DNA from: Thermoplasmatota archaeon
Lineage (GTDB): Archaea > Thermoplasmatota > Penumbrarchaeia > Penumbrarchaeales > Penumbrarchaeaceae
Reading direction: 5' to 3'
NCBI GenBank assembly: GCA_016928095.1
Contig: JAFGLL010000054.1
Location: 1-35,756 of the forward strand
Length of the DNA stretch: 35,756 nucleotides
Shown here: positions 2,935 to 26,677 of the stretch, in pieces
How the letters are laid out: every line of letters begins with the position of its first letter
Numbering within the stretch: the first letter of the stretch is position 1
Notes under the pieces: model-generated
What the model saw: only the letters and a program-made list of their open reading frames with translations
The model's database searches: none
Told to the model about the DNA's origin: nothing
Position numbers and translations under genes: made by a program

Positions 2935-3720
2935 TTAAAGAAAATCCCCGACTTTCGGATTCCTTCCCCTCAACCTCTTGGGGAAGAACCTGCTCCGAAA
3001 GACAATTACCTGTGGGTTCAATCCTTCCGGTAGAAATCCCTTGGGATTCAACCTGGATCGAAAGAATCTGTTCAAGAACCTCGCCGCCCTCAACTGCCAG
3101 AGCGAGTGGCTCGCGTTCCTTTTCCGATTCTCGAAAACAGGAACATCGACCCCTATGAAGTCGCAGAATCCCTTGATGCATTCATTTACTCCCATTTTTA
3201 TTTCCTTGTAATCGTAGATATAAACGTTCTCATCCCCGAAAAGCCTTTTCAGGTGTCCGATATAATCATTGTACCGGAAATCCTCTTTAGAATAGAAAGG
3301 GAATTCTTTCTGAAAATCCTTGAACCTTTTTGTCCCCCCGATCATGACATAATAGTTGTAAGAGGAGATGATCAGTTCGTCGATATCCCTGATTCCGAAT
3401 ATTATCCGTGCGTCCGGGAAGATCTCCTTTATCCTGTCTATATGCTCGATCCTCCTCTGGTGGACATTGCTCTGGAACCAGGGATCAGGATGATACCACC
3501 ATATGTTCTCATCGGAGATCAGGTTGATCTTGTCATTCTTGAGATAAGCTATCAGCTTCTCTTGATCACCAATACATATCTTTGGGGACCTCAGGACCTC
3601 CAGGGCCTCCATCTCCCTTTTAGAGATCATATTGACCCCTTCGAGCTTCGGGAAGATCTCTTCTTGGAGGAACGTCGTGCCGGTCCCCTGGATGCCTATG
3701 TGAAGGATGACATCCGTCAT
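2935..3720 (-). CDS. Sulfotransferase family protein (copy B)
   Basis: A paralogue of the adjacent sulfotransferase, 261 residues. The PAPS loop is HIGIQGTGTTFLQ (residues 7-19), with Gly where copy A has Arg. IRDIDELIISSYNYY keeps the RxxxxxxxS 3'-phosphate site. The C-terminal block (FLNRFFRSRLNPKGFLPEG, then LRGRNPK) is nearly the same as in copy A, so the pair arose by tandem duplication; the middle parts have diverged, which may mean different acceptors. A TATA box (GATTTAAATA on the minus strand, 3743-3753) lies about 27 nt before the start codon, which again suggests a leaderless transcript. It may be transcribed separately from copy A, which has its own TATA box. Confidence 0.85.
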   Translation of the reverse strand: MTDVILHIGIQGTGTTFLQEEIFPKLEGVNMISKREMEALEVLRSPKICIGDQEKLIAYLKNDKINLISDENIWWYHPDPWFQSNVHQRRIEHIDRIKEIFPDARIIFGIRDIDELIISSYNYYVMIGGTKRFKDFQKEFPFYSKEDFRYNDYIGHLKRLFGDENVYIYDYKEIKMGVNECIKGFCDFIGVDVPVFENRKRNASHSLWQLRAARFLNRFFRSRLNPKGFLPEGLNPQVIVFRSRFFPKRLRGRNPKVGDFL

Positions 3721-3872: not shown

Positions 3873-5540
3873 ATGAGGTCAGAAAGAAATTACTCGACCA
3901 GTCCGAATGGAGAAAGGTTCGTTATTCCCAGCGAGGAAGAGAGCATGCAAGAGTTCAGAAGGATCGAGACCCTTGTCATTGCCCAGCGCAGTGCCGGAAG
4001 GGAGATCGTCGTCGTCATGGGCGTCGGCTTTGTCGGTATAGTCATGGCGACAGTCGTCGCGGACTCAAGGGACAAGGACGGTAACTACGGCAAGTTCGTC
4101 ATAGGGATGCAGAGACCTTCCGTAAGGAGCTACTGGAAGATACCAGTCATTAACAGAGGCATCTCTCCAGTAAAATCCGAGGACCCCGAGGTGGACGAGT
4201 TCATTGAAAGAGGAGTTCTTGATAGAAAGAACCTGATGGCAACACATATCTACGACGTCCTGTCCCTCGCCGACGTCGTGGTCGTGGATGTTCAGTGCGA
4301 TTATCTCAAGGAGGACCTTGACAACGTCAGGACAGGCCATGCTGACGTCATGGCACTAGAGAGCTCGATAGACATTATCGCGTAGGGCATAGGGCCGCAC
4401 GCCCTCATCCTGATAGAGACCACTGTGGCTCCTGGAACGACAGAGCAGATAGCCTATCCGATCATTAAGAAGAGGTTCGAAAAGCGCGGGATTGATAGCG
4501 AACCACTCCTTGCCCACAGCTACGAAAGGGTCATGCATGGCAGAGAGTATTTGCGCTCCATCAGGAACTTCTGGAGGGTATGCTCCGGTGTGAACGAGGA
4601 ATCCAAGAGACGCGTGGTCAAGTTCCTCTCGGAAGTCCTCAATACCGAAAATTATCCGCTGACGGTCCTCGACCGGCTGATAGAATCCGAGACGGCCAAG
4701 ATCGTGGAGAACTCCTACAGGGCGACGATCCTCGCATTCCTTGATGAATGGTCCATCTTCGCCGAACGCAATTATGTAGACCTGAAGAAGGTCATAGAGG
4801 CGATCAAGGTCAGGCCCACTCATTCGAACATGGTCTTCCCGGGACCAGGGATCGGTGGTTACTTCCTCCCAAAGGACGGAGGTCTCGGAATGTGGTCCTA
4901 CAAGCATATTTTCGGTTTCGAGGACGATATCTTCCGGATCACCCCGGCTGCCATCGATATCAACGATACCCCCTCCCTCCACGTAGCACAGCTCGTCCGG
5001 GATTCCCTCAGGAACATGGGAAAAACCATTGCAGCAGCAGAGGTCCTCATCCTCGGTACTTCCAACAGAGAGGATGTGGGGGACACCCGGTACAGCGGTT
5101 CGGAGATCATAGTGAGAAAGCTCACCGAGATGGGAGCCGATGTCAAGGTGCACGATCCATATGTAGAGAACTGGTGGGAATTCGAGAAGTAGGATACCTA
5201 TCCCGACCCAACTTATGGAAAGAAGAGGTTCTTCGATAGGTAGGAGAAGCTGAAGGACCTCAGGGTCGAGAATGACCTCTTCCGGGCTATACACGGGATG
5301 GACACGGTCGTCCTTGCGGTCCGCCACAAGAACTACCTCGACCTCGACCCGGATGCCGTCTTCAAAGCTGTCGGGAAATCCTTCTCGATCATCGACTGCT
5401 TCTGCATCCTTGACGACGCTTGGATCCGCAGGTATTTCGAGCTCGGATGCGAGGTAAAAGGACTCGGGAGAGGGCATATCCAGAGAATAAAGAAAGAGGT
5501 CCAGAAAGATAAACTGAAGGACCTCGAAAAGAAGTTCTGA
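3873..5540 (+). pseudogene. Nucleotide-sugar (UDP-glucose/ManNAc-type) dehydrogenase with three in-frame TAG codons
   Basis: A single 556-codon frame encodes a nucleotide-sugar 6-dehydrogenase from end to end, but it is broken by TAG at 4383-4385, 5190-5192 and 5241-5243. There is no frameshift. Conserved blocks remain: the NAD fold VVVMGVGFVG near residue 49, VDVQCDYLKEDL, ETTVAPGTTE, SYERVMHG, ENSYRATILAF, RPTHSNMVFPGPGIGGY, GDTRYSGSEI, VHDPYVENWWEFE, and the C-terminal RRYFELGCEVKGLGRGHI. The catalytic Cys of the GGYCLPKD motif is Phe here (codon 4863-4865, TTC). Three stops plus loss of the nucleophile favour a recent pseudogene. All stops being TAG, two of them at places where I recall Gln in relatives (CAG to TAG), leaves recoding as a minor alternative. 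At least eight other genes in the window end in TAG, which argues against recoding. It lies in the glycan cluster and would have made a uronic acid sugar nucleotide. Confidence 0.8.
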
Positions 5541-8439: not shown

Positions 8440-8447
8440 AAGGAAAA

Positions 8448-8484
8448 CCTCCTACTCATGTGAAATGTTATTGGGTATATAAGT
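8448..8484 (-). promoter_or_regulatory. Promoter and ribosome binding site of the thioester-protein gene
   Basis: On the minus strand a TATA box (ACTTATATACC, 8474-8484) is followed by AGGAGG (8448-8453), 8 nt before the ATG at 8439. This gene therefore has a leadered mRNA, unlike several TATA-adjacent neighbours. Confidence 0.6.
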
Positions 8485-8543
8485 TTTTATCTTAATATTT
8501 GAATTTCTATACCATTATTTACAAATATGTACATATCGCATTT

Positions 8544-8565
8544 AATATAACATATTTGTTATATT
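8544..8565. promoter_or_regulatory. Palindrome, candidate operator (copy 1)
   Basis: AATATAACA and TGTTATATT form perfect 9-bp arms around a 4-nt centre (TATT). The site lies about 105 bp upstream of the thioester-protein start. Its inner 18 nt match the palindrome at 33,769-33,790 with one difference (in the centre). It could bind a dimeric regulator. Confidence 0.45.
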
Positions 8566-9687
8566 ATAAAAAAAATACAATTAATGCCATATAATGCCCC
8601 CGAAAAAAAAATAAAAAAGTAAAAATTGATATAATCAAGGATTAAAACGCATTATTATGAGATATCGCCAGAGTAAAGAAAAACTCAATATATCAAGATA
8701 TAATGATTTTTCCCTATTTTTACCCTTGAATTCATCCTATGATGGCTATGTCCACTCATTTCCTGCACTTGATCATTACATGAGATCCATCTTTGACCGT
8801 CAATATCTTACATGTATGATCATTGTTCCAGCTTTCAAACCAGATAGTTCTTGGACATGAATATGGCTGTTAGGACCTTTCTGTGTTCCCATTATTGAAT
8901 ATCTTTTCAAGAATGGAAAGGATCGCATTCCCATAGACCGAGCAGGCAACCAGGGATGGTCAGATCACTGTGATTGAATATTTTCATTATATTGTTCATA
9001 GGTGCATTATTGCTTTGTGATCATTGCTATGACCGAGCCATGGACCTGTGAGATCCACAACGTTCATGTGAGGATTTCCCAAGATTTGTTTTCAATTTAC
9101 AGAAATCAATATACATTCATCGAGTGATAGCATATTTTACGGTAGGAGATGATGCTCTCTCTGAATAGGCGTCCCAGGAATGGAATTTTTTTCGGTACTT
9201 CGGAACAAGCTTAAAAGCATGGGGCTTTCACCTGTCGATTTCGATGATATCCTGGTTCACGGGTTCACAAACTCTGTCATGGAGATCTAAGATAATCCCA
9301 TGAACGAGATCGATCCAACCGATATAAAGGCGGTCATATACTACATCAAGGACATCATGAAAAGGATCGAGAAGGACCGATACGCTCATTTTCCCGTTTT
9401 GATAATGACCCGACCATCTTCATATATTAACCAATCAGATCCGATATCAGGGTATAGCATGGAAAACGACCTATACGGAAACAGGAACGATCATCTCCGC
9501 AGAAGGTCGATCAGTATATTGTTCTACCCACCGGACTCCATCTGATTTTTTTCCATATTGGCAGGGGATTGGCATATAGATGGGGGAAGGACTCCTCTAA
9601 TACTTGGTTCCGTTCCTATTATCGGTATTGTATATAGAATAGAAATATCAGCGAACCTATCATTCTCATTAACGATACATCAAAAGA
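8566..9687. other. Long AT-rich gap without a clear gene
   Basis: About 1.1 kb with no convincing intact gene. A 67-codon frame at 8657-8860 has no recognisable domain. A short coding-like remnant occurs at 9180-9410 and is listed separately. I found no RNA gene, IS end or tandem repeat in it. Its base composition is AT-richer than the flanking metabolic region, consistent with decayed genes. Confidence 0.5.
9180..9410 (+). pseudogene. Possible gene remnant interrupted by TAA
   Basis: One frame reads MEFFSVLRNKLKSMGLSPVD, continues through DDILVHGFTNSVMEI, meets TAA at 9288-9290, and continues in the same frame as NEIDPTDIKAVIYYIKDIMK and RIEKDRYAHFPVLIM. The amphipathic, charged composition looks like real protein on both sides of the stop, which suggests a broken gene. 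After about 9410 the frame loses this character. I do not recognise the family. Confidence 0.3.
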
Positions 9688-10395
9688 TCATGGTCCGTAT
9701 TCCCTGAGGACCATGAACCTCTCGGCTGCAATTATGCCCACCGAGGAACCGTTGGCCCGTGCATAATATTCCACAGATTCCGGGGACCTTGGATGCGGGT
9801 ATTCCCGGACCTCGCTGATATAACATCTCACGGCATCGAGCTTGTGTTTCAGGACCCCGGAGATATCCACGAACATGTTGGGGATGAAGCGGTTCGGGAC
9901 GCTAGGGAGCATCCACTCGGTGGATGAGGGGGTCTCGTAGGAGATAAGTTTCCTAACGGTCTGTCCAGGTCGGGGGCGGACCGCTACCATTGTCGATTCA
10001 AAGATAAGCCGGTGATCCTTGTTGACGTCCCCCCAGTGGTGGGTGTAGACAATGGTCGGTTGAAACTCTCTGACCTTGTTTTCGATCACTCCGTTGACCT
10101 CGACATGAGGGATGGTGTCAAGCTTCATGTCAGGAAATGAATTGAAATTTATATCCGACACGCCTAAGATCTTCATGGCGTTTCGGGCCTCCATCTTTTT
10201 CCTCATAATCATCTTATCATAGTTCTCATATTGGGAGGATGAACCGTCCGTGACGACCAGGACATGAACCTCATCCCCTCTTATCGAATGAAGCTTCAAA
10301 GTGCCCCCGGGGCCGTAAGTTTCATCGTCTGGGTGTGCGCCGATAACGAGAACCTTTTCGCTCATTGGAACCCCGAACCGTTTATCTATGGACAT
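9688..10395 (-). CDS. PIG-L (LmbE-like) family deacetylase
   Basis: A 235-residue zinc-dependent N-deacetylase of the PIG-L/LmbE fold. The metal-binding motif AHPDDE lies at residues 20-25, and a second conserved block THHWGDVNKDHR supplies the further histidines and aspartate. This family removes acetyl groups from N-acetylglucosamine-type sugars or related small molecules; the substrate here is not evident. In this glycan-rich region a role in sugar or glycan deacetylation is likely. A minus-strand TATA stretch (TTTTAAGTATATCC, 10,409-10,421) lies about 20 nt before the ATG at 10,395, so a leaderless mRNA starting there is plausible; an internal ATG at 10,362 (MSEKVLVIGAHPDDE) is the alternative start. 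Confidence 0.85.
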   Translation of the reverse strand: MSIDKRFGVPMSEKVLVIGAHPDDETYGPGGTLKLHSIRGDEVHVLVVTDGSSSQYENYDKMIMRKKMEARNAMKILGVSDINFNSFPDMKLDTIPHVEVNGVIENKVREFQPTIVYTHHWGDVNKDHRLIFESTMVAVRPRPGQTVRKLISYETPSSTEWMLPSVPNRFIPNMFVDISGVLKHKLDAVRCYISEVREYPHPRSPESVEYYARANGSSVGIIAAERFMVLREYGP

Positions 10396-10699: not shown

Positions 10700-10725
10700 C
10701 CTTATAAAAGGTGGGCGTCCCCCTC

Positions 10726-11892
10726 ATGCCCGCTAAAGCTAAGGGGGGAAATTCCCACAAGAACGAATATGTACTGAAAGCTCATGAATGTTTTGATACG
10801 GTCGTAAAGAACCTGACAAAATATGTCAGATCCCAAAAACAAGGAAGAATAACACCCAGACAGCTCCTATCGACCCTTGTAAGAATGTCTGTCGAGCGGT
10901 TATCGATACATTCCATCAATAGAATATCGGATGATGTTTCCAGTCCGACCAACATCAAACATCATCTGAACAAGATCACAATGGAAGAACTCGTTGACAA
11001 GAACGTCATACTTCTCACATCAGAGATATTGAACAGTATACCCAAAGACAAACCATATCAGCTCTCAATAGACATCAACGAGGAGACATATTATGGTGAG
11101 ATAACTGAGATCAATGAACAGTATGTTATTGGGGGACAGCTCAAGAAATCAACAAATCTGCTCTACAAATATACCTCGGTATATCTAACATACCAGAACA
11201 TCAAGATCACTTTAGCTGTTCTTCCAATGAAGAAAAAGGTGGAACTGATAGAATATGTCAAGGAACTTCTTTCCATTGTTGAAAGACTTGATATAAGGTA
11301 TGATGTTCTACTGCTGGACAGAGGATATTATTCCGTTCCAGTATCCAGATATTGCAAGCAGAACAATATCCCATTGATCATGCCGGTCAAGAAATCAAGC
11401 AAGAAGATCAAAGGTTGGCTGGACAGGAAGATATCAGGTAGATATCGATACAAGGTGAAAAGTTCAGAACATGGTTCTGCAAGGGTAGATGTTATTGTGG
11501 ATGTCCAGAATGCAATGGGATGGCATGGGAAACAGGAACTGCTCTCATATGGATACGCTTGACTTTACATTGACTGGAAGCCCCGGAAAGTGTTCCAGGT
11601 CTACCGCAAGCAGTTTGGCATCGAATCTTTATACCGGATGAAGAATCGAACCAAGGTCAGAACAAGTTCGAGAGATCCAAAGCTCAGATATCTCTACACA
11701 GTCGTATCCATGATGGTGAAGAACTTCTGGGTAATGCTCAGATGGAATTATTTCTGTCCGCTCAGGAGAGGTCCAAAGAAGATCGAGACATCATTGTTCA
11801 GGTTCGAAGAGTTCCTGAACCTTTTCTGGCAAGCGTTCCAGAGACGGTTCAAGATCAAGAGATATACCATTGCTTTAAGACCGGTCAGATAA
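10726..11892 (+). pseudogene. IS4-superfamily (ISH3-like) DDE transposase, interrupted by one TGA
   Basis: A transposase of about 389 codons in one frame, broken by TGA at 11,560-11,562. The DDE residues are all visible: SIDINEETYYG, LLLDRGYYS, and, after the stop, RKQFGIESLYR followed by RTSSRDPKLRYLY and a hydrophobic tail. The arrangement fits the archaeal ISH3/ISC1225-type group within the IS4 superfamily. A sharp TATA box (CTTATAAAAG, about 10,700-10,709) lies about 20 nt before the ATG at 10,726 (MPAKAKGG); GTG at 10,711 is an in-frame alternative. A C-run and G-run near the start (10,717-10,745) could fold over it. With one nonsense codon and no frameshift, the inactivation looks recent. 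Clean terminal repeats were not found. Confidence 0.8.
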
Positions 11893-13081: not shown

Positions 13082-13140
13082 TGTAGATGCCGGCCGAAAT
13101 TTACATAAAACTGCCGGTTGAAAAATCGTTAAAAATGTGA
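13082..13140 (+). mobile_element. Orphan IS21-like terminal repeats (second copy)
   Basis: The sequence starts TGTAGATGCCGG, the same 12 nt as the inverted end at 87. GCCGG cores lie at 13,088 and 24 nt further at 13,112, each followed by (C/T)(C/T)GAAA. The body would lie to the right, but no istA/istB-like gene follows, so this is a solo end or relic. It overlaps a 63-codon frame (12,930-13,121) that is therefore unlikely to be a gene. Confidence 0.5.
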
Positions 13141-22937: not shown

Positions 22938-24950
22938 CTACTCTTTCAGCAATCTCTCTATCATCTTCTCATCGACTATATCTGGAACCGTTATATGTCC
23001 CCGATCCCTGTTCCTCGCGTTCCAATCCGAAACGACCTTCATGGAATTCTCATTCCCGGCCCAGGACCTTCTTCCAACACCCACCATCACATCCCATTCA
23101 AGGGCGCTCCGTATTACACCATCTACATATTCGGAACCATCCAGGACCAGACCGTAACCGCTGTTCTGGACCTTCCCTATCCCGACCCCGCCGCCATTGC
23201 TGAGGACGACCATGGTCATACCTCTGGCCACGTTCCCGGCAAAACAATGTGCGGACATATCCGCCGTGACGTTGCTTCCATCCTTGATGTTGGCGGTCTC
23301 CCTGTAGGGGGAATCTGTACCTCCCGGGTCATGATGGTCTCTTCCGATCATTATCGGGCCGACCTCCCCTTTCCTTACCATATCGTTGAACTTCAGGGCG
23401 ATCTTCACCCTGCCGTGGGCATCTTGGTACAATATCCTGGCTTGAGATCCGACAACGAGCCCTATCCTCCCTGCCTGGGAGATCCATCTGTGATTGTCGA
23501 GATCCTGAGTGGAACGGTCGGGATCGATACATTCCATAGCCGCTCTGTCAGTCCTCTCAAGGTCCTTCGGATCGCAGGATAGGCAGACCCATCTGAAGGG
23601 GCCGAAACCGTAGTCGAATACCATAGGCCCCATGAGGTCCTCGATGTAGGACGGCAAGATGAAACCCTCGGCGGGATTGTCAGGGTTACGTGCGATATCC
23701 TTCGCCCCGGCATCGTACACGGCCTTCAGGAATGAATTGCCGTAATCCCAGAAGAACATCCCCCTCTCCCTCATGGTCCTTATCAGATCGTACTGTCGGA
23801 CAAGAGAGGCATCGACCATCTTCCTGAACCTTTCCGGGTCTGTCTCGATCATGCCAGACCTGTGCGGTCCGCCCATGGCCTCCTCATAGGTAAGACCAGA
23901 AGGCGTGTAACCTCCATCGTAAACGGCATGGCATGATGTCTGATCGGATCCGAGGTCAACCTTAACATCGTTCTTGACGCAGTATTCCCAAAGGTCCACT
24001 ATATTCCCACTGTAAGCGATCGATACCGCATCTTTTCTCGTCCTGTACTCTCCCACCCATCCGAATATCTCGTCAAGGTCATCTGACACGAGGGATACCC
24101 AGCCCTGTTCGTGCCTCTTGAAGGTCTGTTTATCGTTCACCTCGGCTATGACACCGATCCCTCCGGCTATCTCCACGGCTTTCGCCTGGGCACCGGACAT
24201 GCCTCCCAATCCCGATGTTATGAACAATCTTCCGGCGAGGTTCTCTTTCGGACCGATATTCAGATATCTTCTTCCGGCGTTCAGCAAGGTGATGTATGTT
24301 CCGTGCACGATCCCCTGAGGGCCGATGTACATCCAACCTCCTGCTGTCATCTGACCGTAATTGGTCACTCCCAGGGCTGCGGCTTTGTTGAACCCTCTCT
24401 GATTATCATATTCTCCGACGAGCAATCCGTTGGTCATTATTACCCGCGGAGCCTCCTTGCGAGAGGGGAACAGACCAAGCGGGTGACCGGAGAAGACGAC
24501 GAGGGTCCTGTCATCGGTCATCTCTTCGAGATACCTCTTGATCAACCGGTACTGCATCCAGTTCTGACATACCTGGCCGGTGGACCCGTAGGTTACAAGC
24601 TCATAGGGGAAGAGTGCGATATCGTGATCCAGGTTGTTGTCTATCATGAGCTGAACGGCCCTTCCCTGAAGGGTCCTGCCGCGGTATTCGTTCACAGGCT
24701 TTGCTTTGATATTACCTTCCGGTCGGAACCTGTACCCGTATATCCTGCCTCTCTCAAGGAGTTCCTTCAAGAATTCCGGGGCCATCATCTCATGAAATTG
24801 ACGGGGGATGTACCTGAGGGCATTCCTCAATGCCAGTTCCGTTTCCTTGATGCTCAGGTCGTATCCCCTGGAGGGAGCCCGGTCTGTCCCTTTCATGAAT
24901 TCAGGCATCGGTGGGATTTCCTCGATGCCAAAGCCTTCTTCTTCATGCAT
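22938..24950 (-). CDS. hutU: Urocanate hydratase
   Basis: A 670-residue urocanase of the long form, which hydrates urocanate to imidazolonepropionate with tightly bound NAD in histidine breakdown. Visible blocks include GQVCQNWMQY, VVFSGHPLGLFPS, MTNGLLVGEYD, MTAGGWMYIGPQGIVHGTY, ITSGLGGMSGAQAKA, DLGSDQTSCH, FDYGFGPFRWVCLSCDPKDL and SNGGGVGIGKVQNSG. The ATG at 24,950 (MHEEEG) is preferred: it lies 24 bp after the stop of the upstream protease gene and gives the usual length. A longer frame reaches 25,109 but runs into that gene. No hutH, hutI or hutG is seen nearby. Its presence points to amino-acid fermentation or degradation. Confidence 0.92.
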   Translation of the reverse strand: MHEEEGFGIEEIPPMPEFMKGTDRAPSRGYDLSIKETELALRNALRYIPRQFHEMMAPEFLKELLERGRIYGYRFRPEGNIKAKPVNEYRGRTLQGRAVQLMIDNNLDHDIALFPYELVTYGSTGQVCQNWMQYRLIKRYLEEMTDDRTLVVFSGHPLGLFPSRKEAPRVIMTNGLLVGEYDNQRGFNKAAALGVTNYGQMTAGGWMYIGPQGIVHGTYITLLNAGRRYLNIGPKENLAGRLFITSGLGGMSGAQAKAVEIAGGIGVIAEVNDKQTFKRHEQGWVSLVSDDLDEIFGWVGEYRTRKDAVSIAYSGNIVDLWEYCVKNDVKVDLGSDQTSCHAVYDGGYTPSGLTYEEAMGGPHRSGMIETDPERFRKMVDASLVRQYDLIRTMRERGMFFWDYGNSFLKAVYDAGAKDIARNPDNPAEGFILPSYIEDLMGPMVFDYGFGPFRWVCLSCDPKDLERTDRAAMECIDPDRSTQDLDNHRWISQAGRIGLVVGSQARILYQDAHGRVKIALKFNDMVRKGEVGPIMIGRDHHDPGGTDSPYRETANIKDGSNVTADMSAHCFAGNVARGMTMVVLSNGGGVGIGKVQNSGYGLVLDGSEYVDGVIRSALEWDVMVGVGRRSWAGNENSMKVVSDWNARNRDRGHITVPDIVDEKMIERLLKE

Positions 24951-24973
24951 TCGACCATCTCCGATCTGAAACA

Positions 24974-26677
24974 TCAAATGGTCAAGGTAGCGATCGTCCC
25001 TTCCTCCAGGTCCATTTCCGAAATGAGGTTCGATACGGTGACCGATATGGAATATTCGTTCCCGGAATCCCTCAGACCGATGATACCCGGACCTATTGCC
25101 GGAACCCACATGCCGGCGCTCACCATGAACACGTCCACATACACATCATAATCTCCGGTCGCGTTCTGTATCATCTGATCAGTGAATACAACCTCGAGAT
25201 GGATATCCCCCGGTGATCCCTCGGGGTTCTCTCCGGAATCCTCGATCGATGTGTTCAGATAGCTTATCAAGACCCTGAACTCATCGGGGGTGTTTTCATG
25301 GGGGCGTATCCTGGTCGCCGGAGGATTCGACTCGTCCGACCAGGTGAGGTCCACGGAGATCTTCTGGACTATTGTATCTCTGGTCGATGAGAAATTGTAG
25401 TTCTGAGAACTCCCTTCGTTCAGTGTCTGGATATCCTGGAAGATGGTCTCCTCCTTGTAATACTTTGTAAGGTCGATCTCTCCCTGTATTTCCTCATCGG
25501 TATCCGAAGGGCTTATTGCAGATAGGTCCTTGACCCCTAGACCGGCCGATATGGAAAATAGAACTATCAGAACGACCAGCGTCACTCCGGCGAGTGATCC
25601 TCCCGTATATCCAATATGCATACGGGAGGTATCATGCTGGAAGAAGAACTGCTGGACCTTGACAAGTCTCCCTCCAAAGGCGGCTTCCCCTCTCTCCTGA
25701 GGGGCCCAGTAGAACCGGTGTATGAGATAGAATATCAGTATCATGAAAGCATTGGCCAGTATGGATTCCATGAAGGACTGTAGGTATCCCTCGAACTCGG
25801 TCAGCCCCGCAAGTGTCTGCCTTCCCTGTATCCAGTAGACCGATAGCTGCCAGTTCCCGATCCCGTGCATGACGATGCAGGCAAATATGTTCCTTGACCA
25901 CATATATAGAGCACCGAACGTTGCGCCTGCCGCCATCCAGCTCATCTCCGCAAAGATCAGCTGGACAAATGTCATCTTGTAGATGAACAGGGCTATCGGG
26001 ATGTGGCTGAAACCGAAGAATACGGACGAAAAAACAAGGGCCGCCCATTTCGGCAGGACCCTCTGGGACTGGTCTTGCGTGAATGCACGGAATTCGAACT
26101 CCTCGACGGGGCCCACGATGAAGAACATCACGAAGGTCATCATGAAGAAGGTCGGAAAGTCCATTGCGTCTATCGAGAAGATATCCAGCAATGTGGGTGT
26201 TAGGAAAACGGTTCCTCCAAGCATCACACCGGTCACGTTCAGGACCGCCATCTCGGCCATTCTCCAAACAACTCCCCCGAAAAGACCCACCAGGACGGCC
26301 GTCATCAGTCTCTTCTTTGTGAGCTTGAAGGGACCCAGGTTGAAGCTCATGAACTTGCCGTCCTGGAGATCGTCCTTGTTGAAGATAGGCTCTTTCCTTA
26401 TGAACTTCCAGTACAGCAGTATCGGACCGAGGCTTATGGTGGGTGCTGCGATCATATGACCTATGAAGAACGGGATATTGAACCCTTCTCCGTATATCGG
26501 GGCTGTGGAAAACCTGTAGAAGCCCCAGAGGATGAATTCAAGAACGAGAACTCCCGCGATCTCCAGAATGTATCTCACCCTCCCCGGGGCGGGTCTCCTG
26601 CCGACAGGCGGGACACCATGCCATTTGTCGTCGATATCGTCAAGCTGCCTCGGTCCTTGATCATCTTGCGGGTCCAT
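24974..26677 (-). CDS. CPBP (CAAX-type) intramembrane metalloprotease with C-terminal ectodomain
   Basis: A 567-residue polytopic membrane protein of the CPBP/Abi family. The glutamate motif EEFEFR (Glu192-Glu193, Arg197), FGFSHIP (His225) and VMHGIGNW (His271, Asn275) give the complete ExxxR/FxxxH/HxxxN active-site set. About eight membrane segments cover residues 35-330, with another helix near 360-385 (LAGVTLVVLIVLFSISAGL). The last 180 residues form an unusual soluble, probably extracytoplasmic domain. The start is supported by GGAGG 8 nt upstream of the ATG. It is followed by the urocanate hydratase gene on the same strand. The substrate is unknown. The ectodomain could sense or recruit a client. 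Confidence 0.85.
   Translation of the reverse strand: MDPQDDQGPRQLDDIDDKWHGVPPVGRRPAPGRVRYILEIAGVLVLEFILWGFYRFSTAPIYGEGFNIPFFIGHMIAAPTISLGPILLYWKFIRKEPIFNKDDLQDGKFMSFNLGPFKLTKKRLMTAVLVGLFGGVVWRMAEMAVLNVTGVMLGGTVFLTPTLLDIFSIDAMDFPTFFMMTFVMFFIVGPVEEFEFRAFTQDQSQRVLPKWAALVFSSVFFGFSHIPIALFIYKMTFVQLIFAEMSWMAAGATFGALYMWSRNIFACIVMHGIGNWQLSVYWIQGRQTLAGLTEFEGYLQSFMESILANAFMILIFYLIHRFYWAPQERGEAAFGGRLVKVQQFFFQHDTSRMHIGYTGGSLAGVTLVVLIVLFSISAGLGVKDLSAISPSDTDEEIQGEIDLTKYYKEETIFQDIQTLNEGSSQNYNFSSTRDTIVQKISVDLTWSDESNPPATRIRPHENTPDEFRVLISYLNTSIEDSGENPEGSPGDIHLEVVFTDQMIQNATGDYDVYVDVFMVSAGMWVPAIGPGIIGLRDSGNEYSISVTVSNLISEMDLEEGTIATLTI

Follow-up and report, generated by a model that had tools for sequence, protein, structure and literature searches.

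The stretch of DNA analysed here (the window, 35,756 nucleotides) carries on its forward strand, at 3873–5540, a gene of 556 codons for a nucleotide-sugar (UDP-glucose/GDP-mannose type) dehydrogenase that is interrupted three times, each time by TAG. Is this gene dead, or is TAG read in it as an amino acid? The locus is very probably a pseudogene that arose recently from a laterally acquired gene, decaying neutrally in a glycan region with insertion sequences. The host is taken to be an archaeon on the basis of its archaeal-type genes (DUF1616, an HMG-CoA synthase/thiolase set and KaiC), and intron-containing tRNA-Tyr and tRNA-Met genes point the same way.

Frame, stops and conserved sites

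The frame runs from an ATG start to a terminal TGA, and translation gives exactly three internal stops, at 4383–4385 (codon 171), 5190–5192 (codon 440) and 5241–5243 (codon 457), which divide it into pieces of 170, 268, 16 and 98 residues. Translation, with relatives as a comparison, reveals no frameshift, in agreement with the preliminary description of the locus, and the family similarity which that description had seen on both sides of the stops extends to all three UDPG/MGDP dehydrogenase Pfam domains (PF03721, PF00984 and PF03720). The NAD-binding, central and UDP-binding domains do not share one open frame, being cut by the three stops. Third-position GC (0.70) is coding-like. An ORF on the opposite strand (4356–5477, 373 aa) was considered as a gene and dismissed, having no Pfam or NCBIfam match; since homologues also show antisense open stretches (79–575 codons), it is read as a by-product of codon usage.

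Among the 22 bacterial relatives covering the last two stops, codon 440 is CAG in every case and codon 457 is always Gln (20 CAG, 2 CAA), which bears out the earlier view that two of the stops lie at Gln positions and agrees with the CAG to TAG changes presumed there. Codon 171 is mainly Glu (17 of 23 relatives), with Gln in four, Val in one and Asn in one. An internal TAG was seen in none of the relatives' genes. The window copy also has Phe (TTC, 4863–4865) at codon 331, within GPGIGGYFLPKD, where all 23 relatives have Cys, within GPGIGGYCLPKD; Cys is aligned at this position in the PDB homologues 3g79 and 4r16 as well. This Cys, established as the catalytic residue of the dehydrogenase family, is absent from the GxGxGGxCxPKD motif of the window copy, as had been noticed at the outset. 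Relative to its intact homologues, the gene carries disabling mutations, namely the three TAG codons and the Cys to Phe change.

Constraint was assessed at 208 alignment columns in which every other full-length relative has the same residue. Here the window copy differs at 15, two being stops and 13 substitutions (A56I, T120N, G150D, P222H, V227L, P269L, G301Y, C331F, R367P, A396T, Y398N, S449G and A478T), which are spread over all parts of the gene. None of the other sequences, branches of similar length included, exceeds 8 such substitutions (the count of 14 for L051 includes gaps from its short N-terminus). The changes are mostly radical, with a mean BLOSUM62 score of −1.15 in the window copy, where the other sequences average +0.4 to +2.0. 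Using the counts of unique residues per branch as a measure of relaxed constraint, 27% of those in the window copy fall on invariant columns, compared with 13.5% on other branches (P = 0.02 by Fisher's test, without correction for phylogeny), so that the excess is a modest one. Judged from the alignment, the window copy is under relaxed constraint of recent date, with mostly radical departures at conserved sites of the kind looked for in a pseudogene.

TAG as a stop codon in this genome

In a reassigned code TAG would seldom or never end a gene; here it terminates 35 of the 124 ORFs with a length of 150 aa or more, sampled from stretches totalling about 218 kb (two or three of the 124 are artefacts at the dehydrogenase locus itself). 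Eight plausible genes in the window end in TAG, matching the earlier count of at least eight. In-frame extensions past the stop are of similar length after TAG (median 39 codons) and after TGA (29), and a TAG-specific readthrough extension was rejected on this ground. Neither pylS (best 33 bits, cut-off 178) nor pylD (best 18.6 bits, cut-off 150) was found in the genome at curated cut-offs; in the control set of 14 genomes, which included Methanosarcina acetivorans, one was over the cut-off, and the Methanosarcina control came out positive. No CUA anticodon was read in 40 Rfam tRNA matches, a set in which some tRNA species are missing and a weak match (C56:24-73) is unassigned, and which was obtained with a general tRNA model, with which tRNA-Pyl scores poorly. 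The anticodons of the intron-containing Tyr and Met tRNA genes were read by hand; ARAGORN, run in bacterial mode, overlooks both genes (tRNA-Met, L083, on contig C69; tRNA-Tyr, L092, on C13).

Pyrrolysine or genome-wide recoding (the latter already thought unlikely) is rejected, TAG being an ordinary stop and pylS and pylD being absent. The locus resembles the pyrrolysine systems of Methanosarcina and Methanomassiliicoccales in having in-frame TAG in an archaeal gene, but here TAG commonly serves as an ordinary stop, the two pyl genes are lacking, and the product is of dehydrogenase type rather than a methylamine methyltransferase. Nothing specific to this case was found in the literature.

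The restriction of the stops to TAG needs no special cause. With the codons of three Verrucomicrobiota-type relatives, 54–61% of single-base nonsense mutations yield TAG, and the probability that three random ones are all TAG is about 0.16–0.22 (0.05–0.08 with the codon usage of L053). The pattern is within chance (about 1 in 5), and recoding is therefore not needed to explain it. Every 100 neutral missense changes should bring some 4–5 stops; by rough arithmetic from the invariant-site counts, the window copy has undergone about 17–36 such changes, which would give 1–2 stops where three are observed. The locus is beyond chance as a homologous gene, and the TAG-only pattern is not. A caution follows for genes rich in CAG, GAG and AAG: disruption by TAG alone is expected in about one case in five, and is by itself no sign of recoding.

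Competing explanations

The stops could have been created by assembly or consensus error, the genome being an incomplete assembly of 124 contigs. Three stops and 13 mostly radical substitutions across the gene, with no indels, do not fit the pattern of such errors, nor do two more broken genes nearby, and this explanation is very unlikely. Gene-specific readthrough or suppression of amber codons, in which each TAG would be read as Gln or some other residue, would give a full-length protein; it would agree with a frame that lacks frameshifts and in which every stop is TAG, two of them precisely where relatives have an invariant Gln. However, the remaining TAG (codon 171) is at a mainly Glu position, internal TAG occurs in no relative, the enzyme so produced would lack the catalytic Cys along with further fixed residues, and the genome shows neither pylS nor pylD at curated cut-offs and no CUA anticodon in its 40 tRNA matches (with the same reservations as to missing species and tRNA-Pyl). 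Readthrough of this kind, which the preliminary description had left open, has an extremely low probability and no positive support. A narrower form of it, amber suppression confined to this gene in an archaeon that lacks the pyrrolysine system, with Gln read at TAG and a dehydrogenase of altered catalysis as the product, is likewise extremely improbable. Finally, codons 1–170 or the middle piece of 268 residues might function alone in a new role, and the former do retain the start codon, with a plausible TATA-like stretch upstream; yet the first stop cuts the NAD-binding domain, the middle piece is without the catalytic Cys and invariant sites are substituted in all parts of the gene, so that the likelihood of functional fragments is virtually nil.

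The pseudogene explanation, which was already favoured in the preliminary description, is supported by the radical changes at invariant sites, the lost Cys and the two broken genes nearby. A point against decay is that neither a frameshift nor a deletion has occurred in 1.67 kb and that the coding-like third-position GC has been kept; inactivation must therefore be recent. The modest size of the excess at invariant sites counts on that side too. Ordinary prokaryotic pseudogenes of laterally acquired genes are similarly restricted to a lineage, carry nonsense mutations, show relaxed constraint and lie beside insertion sequences and other broken genes. The dehydrogenase locus differs from them in having no indels yet, and is hence a young example. 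It matters little beyond annotation, other than as a clean case of an archaeal glycan gene, laterally acquired, that has died only recently.

Origin and neighbourhood

Alignment to intact homologues, as had been proposed, gives a match over nearly the full length at 64–72% identity, with the stops and the loss of Cys specific to the window copy. These relatives come from many bacterial phyla (Verrucomicrobiota, Bacteroidota, Deltaproteobacteria, Planctomycetota, Latescibacterota, Krumholzibacteriota, Aminicenantes and others). The window copy shares this level of identity and the three domains with a bacterial clade of nucleotide-sugar dehydrogenases of about 545 residues (L032–L054), but differs in its stops, its Phe and a TIGR03026 score (173.8 bits) that is under the cut-off of 189.8. 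In the tree it has a long branch (0.378) and stands beside Verrucomicrobiota-type sequences, a grouping for which support was not recovered after rerooting. Within its own phylum, close relatives are found in 3 of 390 genomes, all of a distant family and branching elsewhere in the tree. The suggested comparison with sister genomes provided a counterpart of the region but none of the gene: in the seven genomes sharing its genus or family no homologue exceeds 30% identity, the dehydrogenases present in them reaching at most 30%, while one same-family genome (G004) has an intact related set with a different dehydrogenase. The gene was most likely acquired laterally, since its relatives are bacterial and of many phyla and it is rare in the phylum and absent from the genomes of its genus and family; we infer both the transfer and its direction. 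A viral origin was rejected (no relative among viral contigs), as were a plasmid source (plasmid relatives have less than 60% identity) and transfer of a whole cluster, no other tested window gene being shared with the bacterial loci except for a distant epimerase match (about 30%).

Upstream lies a gene for a two-domain oxidoreductase (ADH_zinc_N and GFO_IDH_MocA; 88–2049, + strand), which has lost its first 50–60 or so codons at the end of an insertion sequence. Its ORF (109–2049) is 58% identical to an intact protein of 704 residues encoded by a same-family genome, from residue 60 of the latter onwards, and the similarity can be followed as far as base 88 (SYLGKAKM). Bases 1–87 form the terminus of a multicopy repeat, read as an insertion sequence, and contigs C46 and C98 also end in this terminus, with flanks that differ; on this evidence the oxidoreductase gene was most likely broken by transposition, the contig ending inside the element. 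The terminus, which begins (minus strand) with TGTAGATGCCGGTCGAAAATGTCACA, forms the contig end and cuts into the oxidoreductase gene. A solo inverted copy of it, diverged (77%), lies 13 kb away at 13082–13124. Between the oxidoreductase gene and the pseudogene are two tandem, paralogous sulfotransferase-family genes (2077–2868 and 2935–3720, both − strand). A DDE transposase gene (10711–11892, + strand) has one in-frame TGA, at 11560, and no frameshift; its further copies in the genome are all fragments.

In G004 an intact related set is found together, consisting of an oxidoreductase, the different dehydrogenase (about 29% identity), DUF1616 and a sulfotransferase. The region is therefore a glycan gene neighbourhood in that family, and in the present genome it is eroding. 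The course of events was very probably that a dehydrogenase gene of the bacterial-type clade entered the archaeon laterally, at a site where insertion sequences lie among sulfotransferase genes and others related to glycans, and that after losing its function it has been decaying neutrally. Going by the relatives, two Gln CAG codons became TAG, as did a third codon that was ancestrally Glu or Gln; the catalytic Cys was replaced, as were a dozen further fixed residues. This order and the loss of function are presumed, and a full-length product is presumably no longer translated.

Further along, about 1.2 kb (8440–9690) is without a convincing gene and may hold more gene remnants. A urocanase ORF and a CAAX-protease-like ORF overlap (22938–25109 and 24974–26677, − strand); the urocanase ORF has been given an N-terminus some 130 residues too long, which is probably a matter of start sites.
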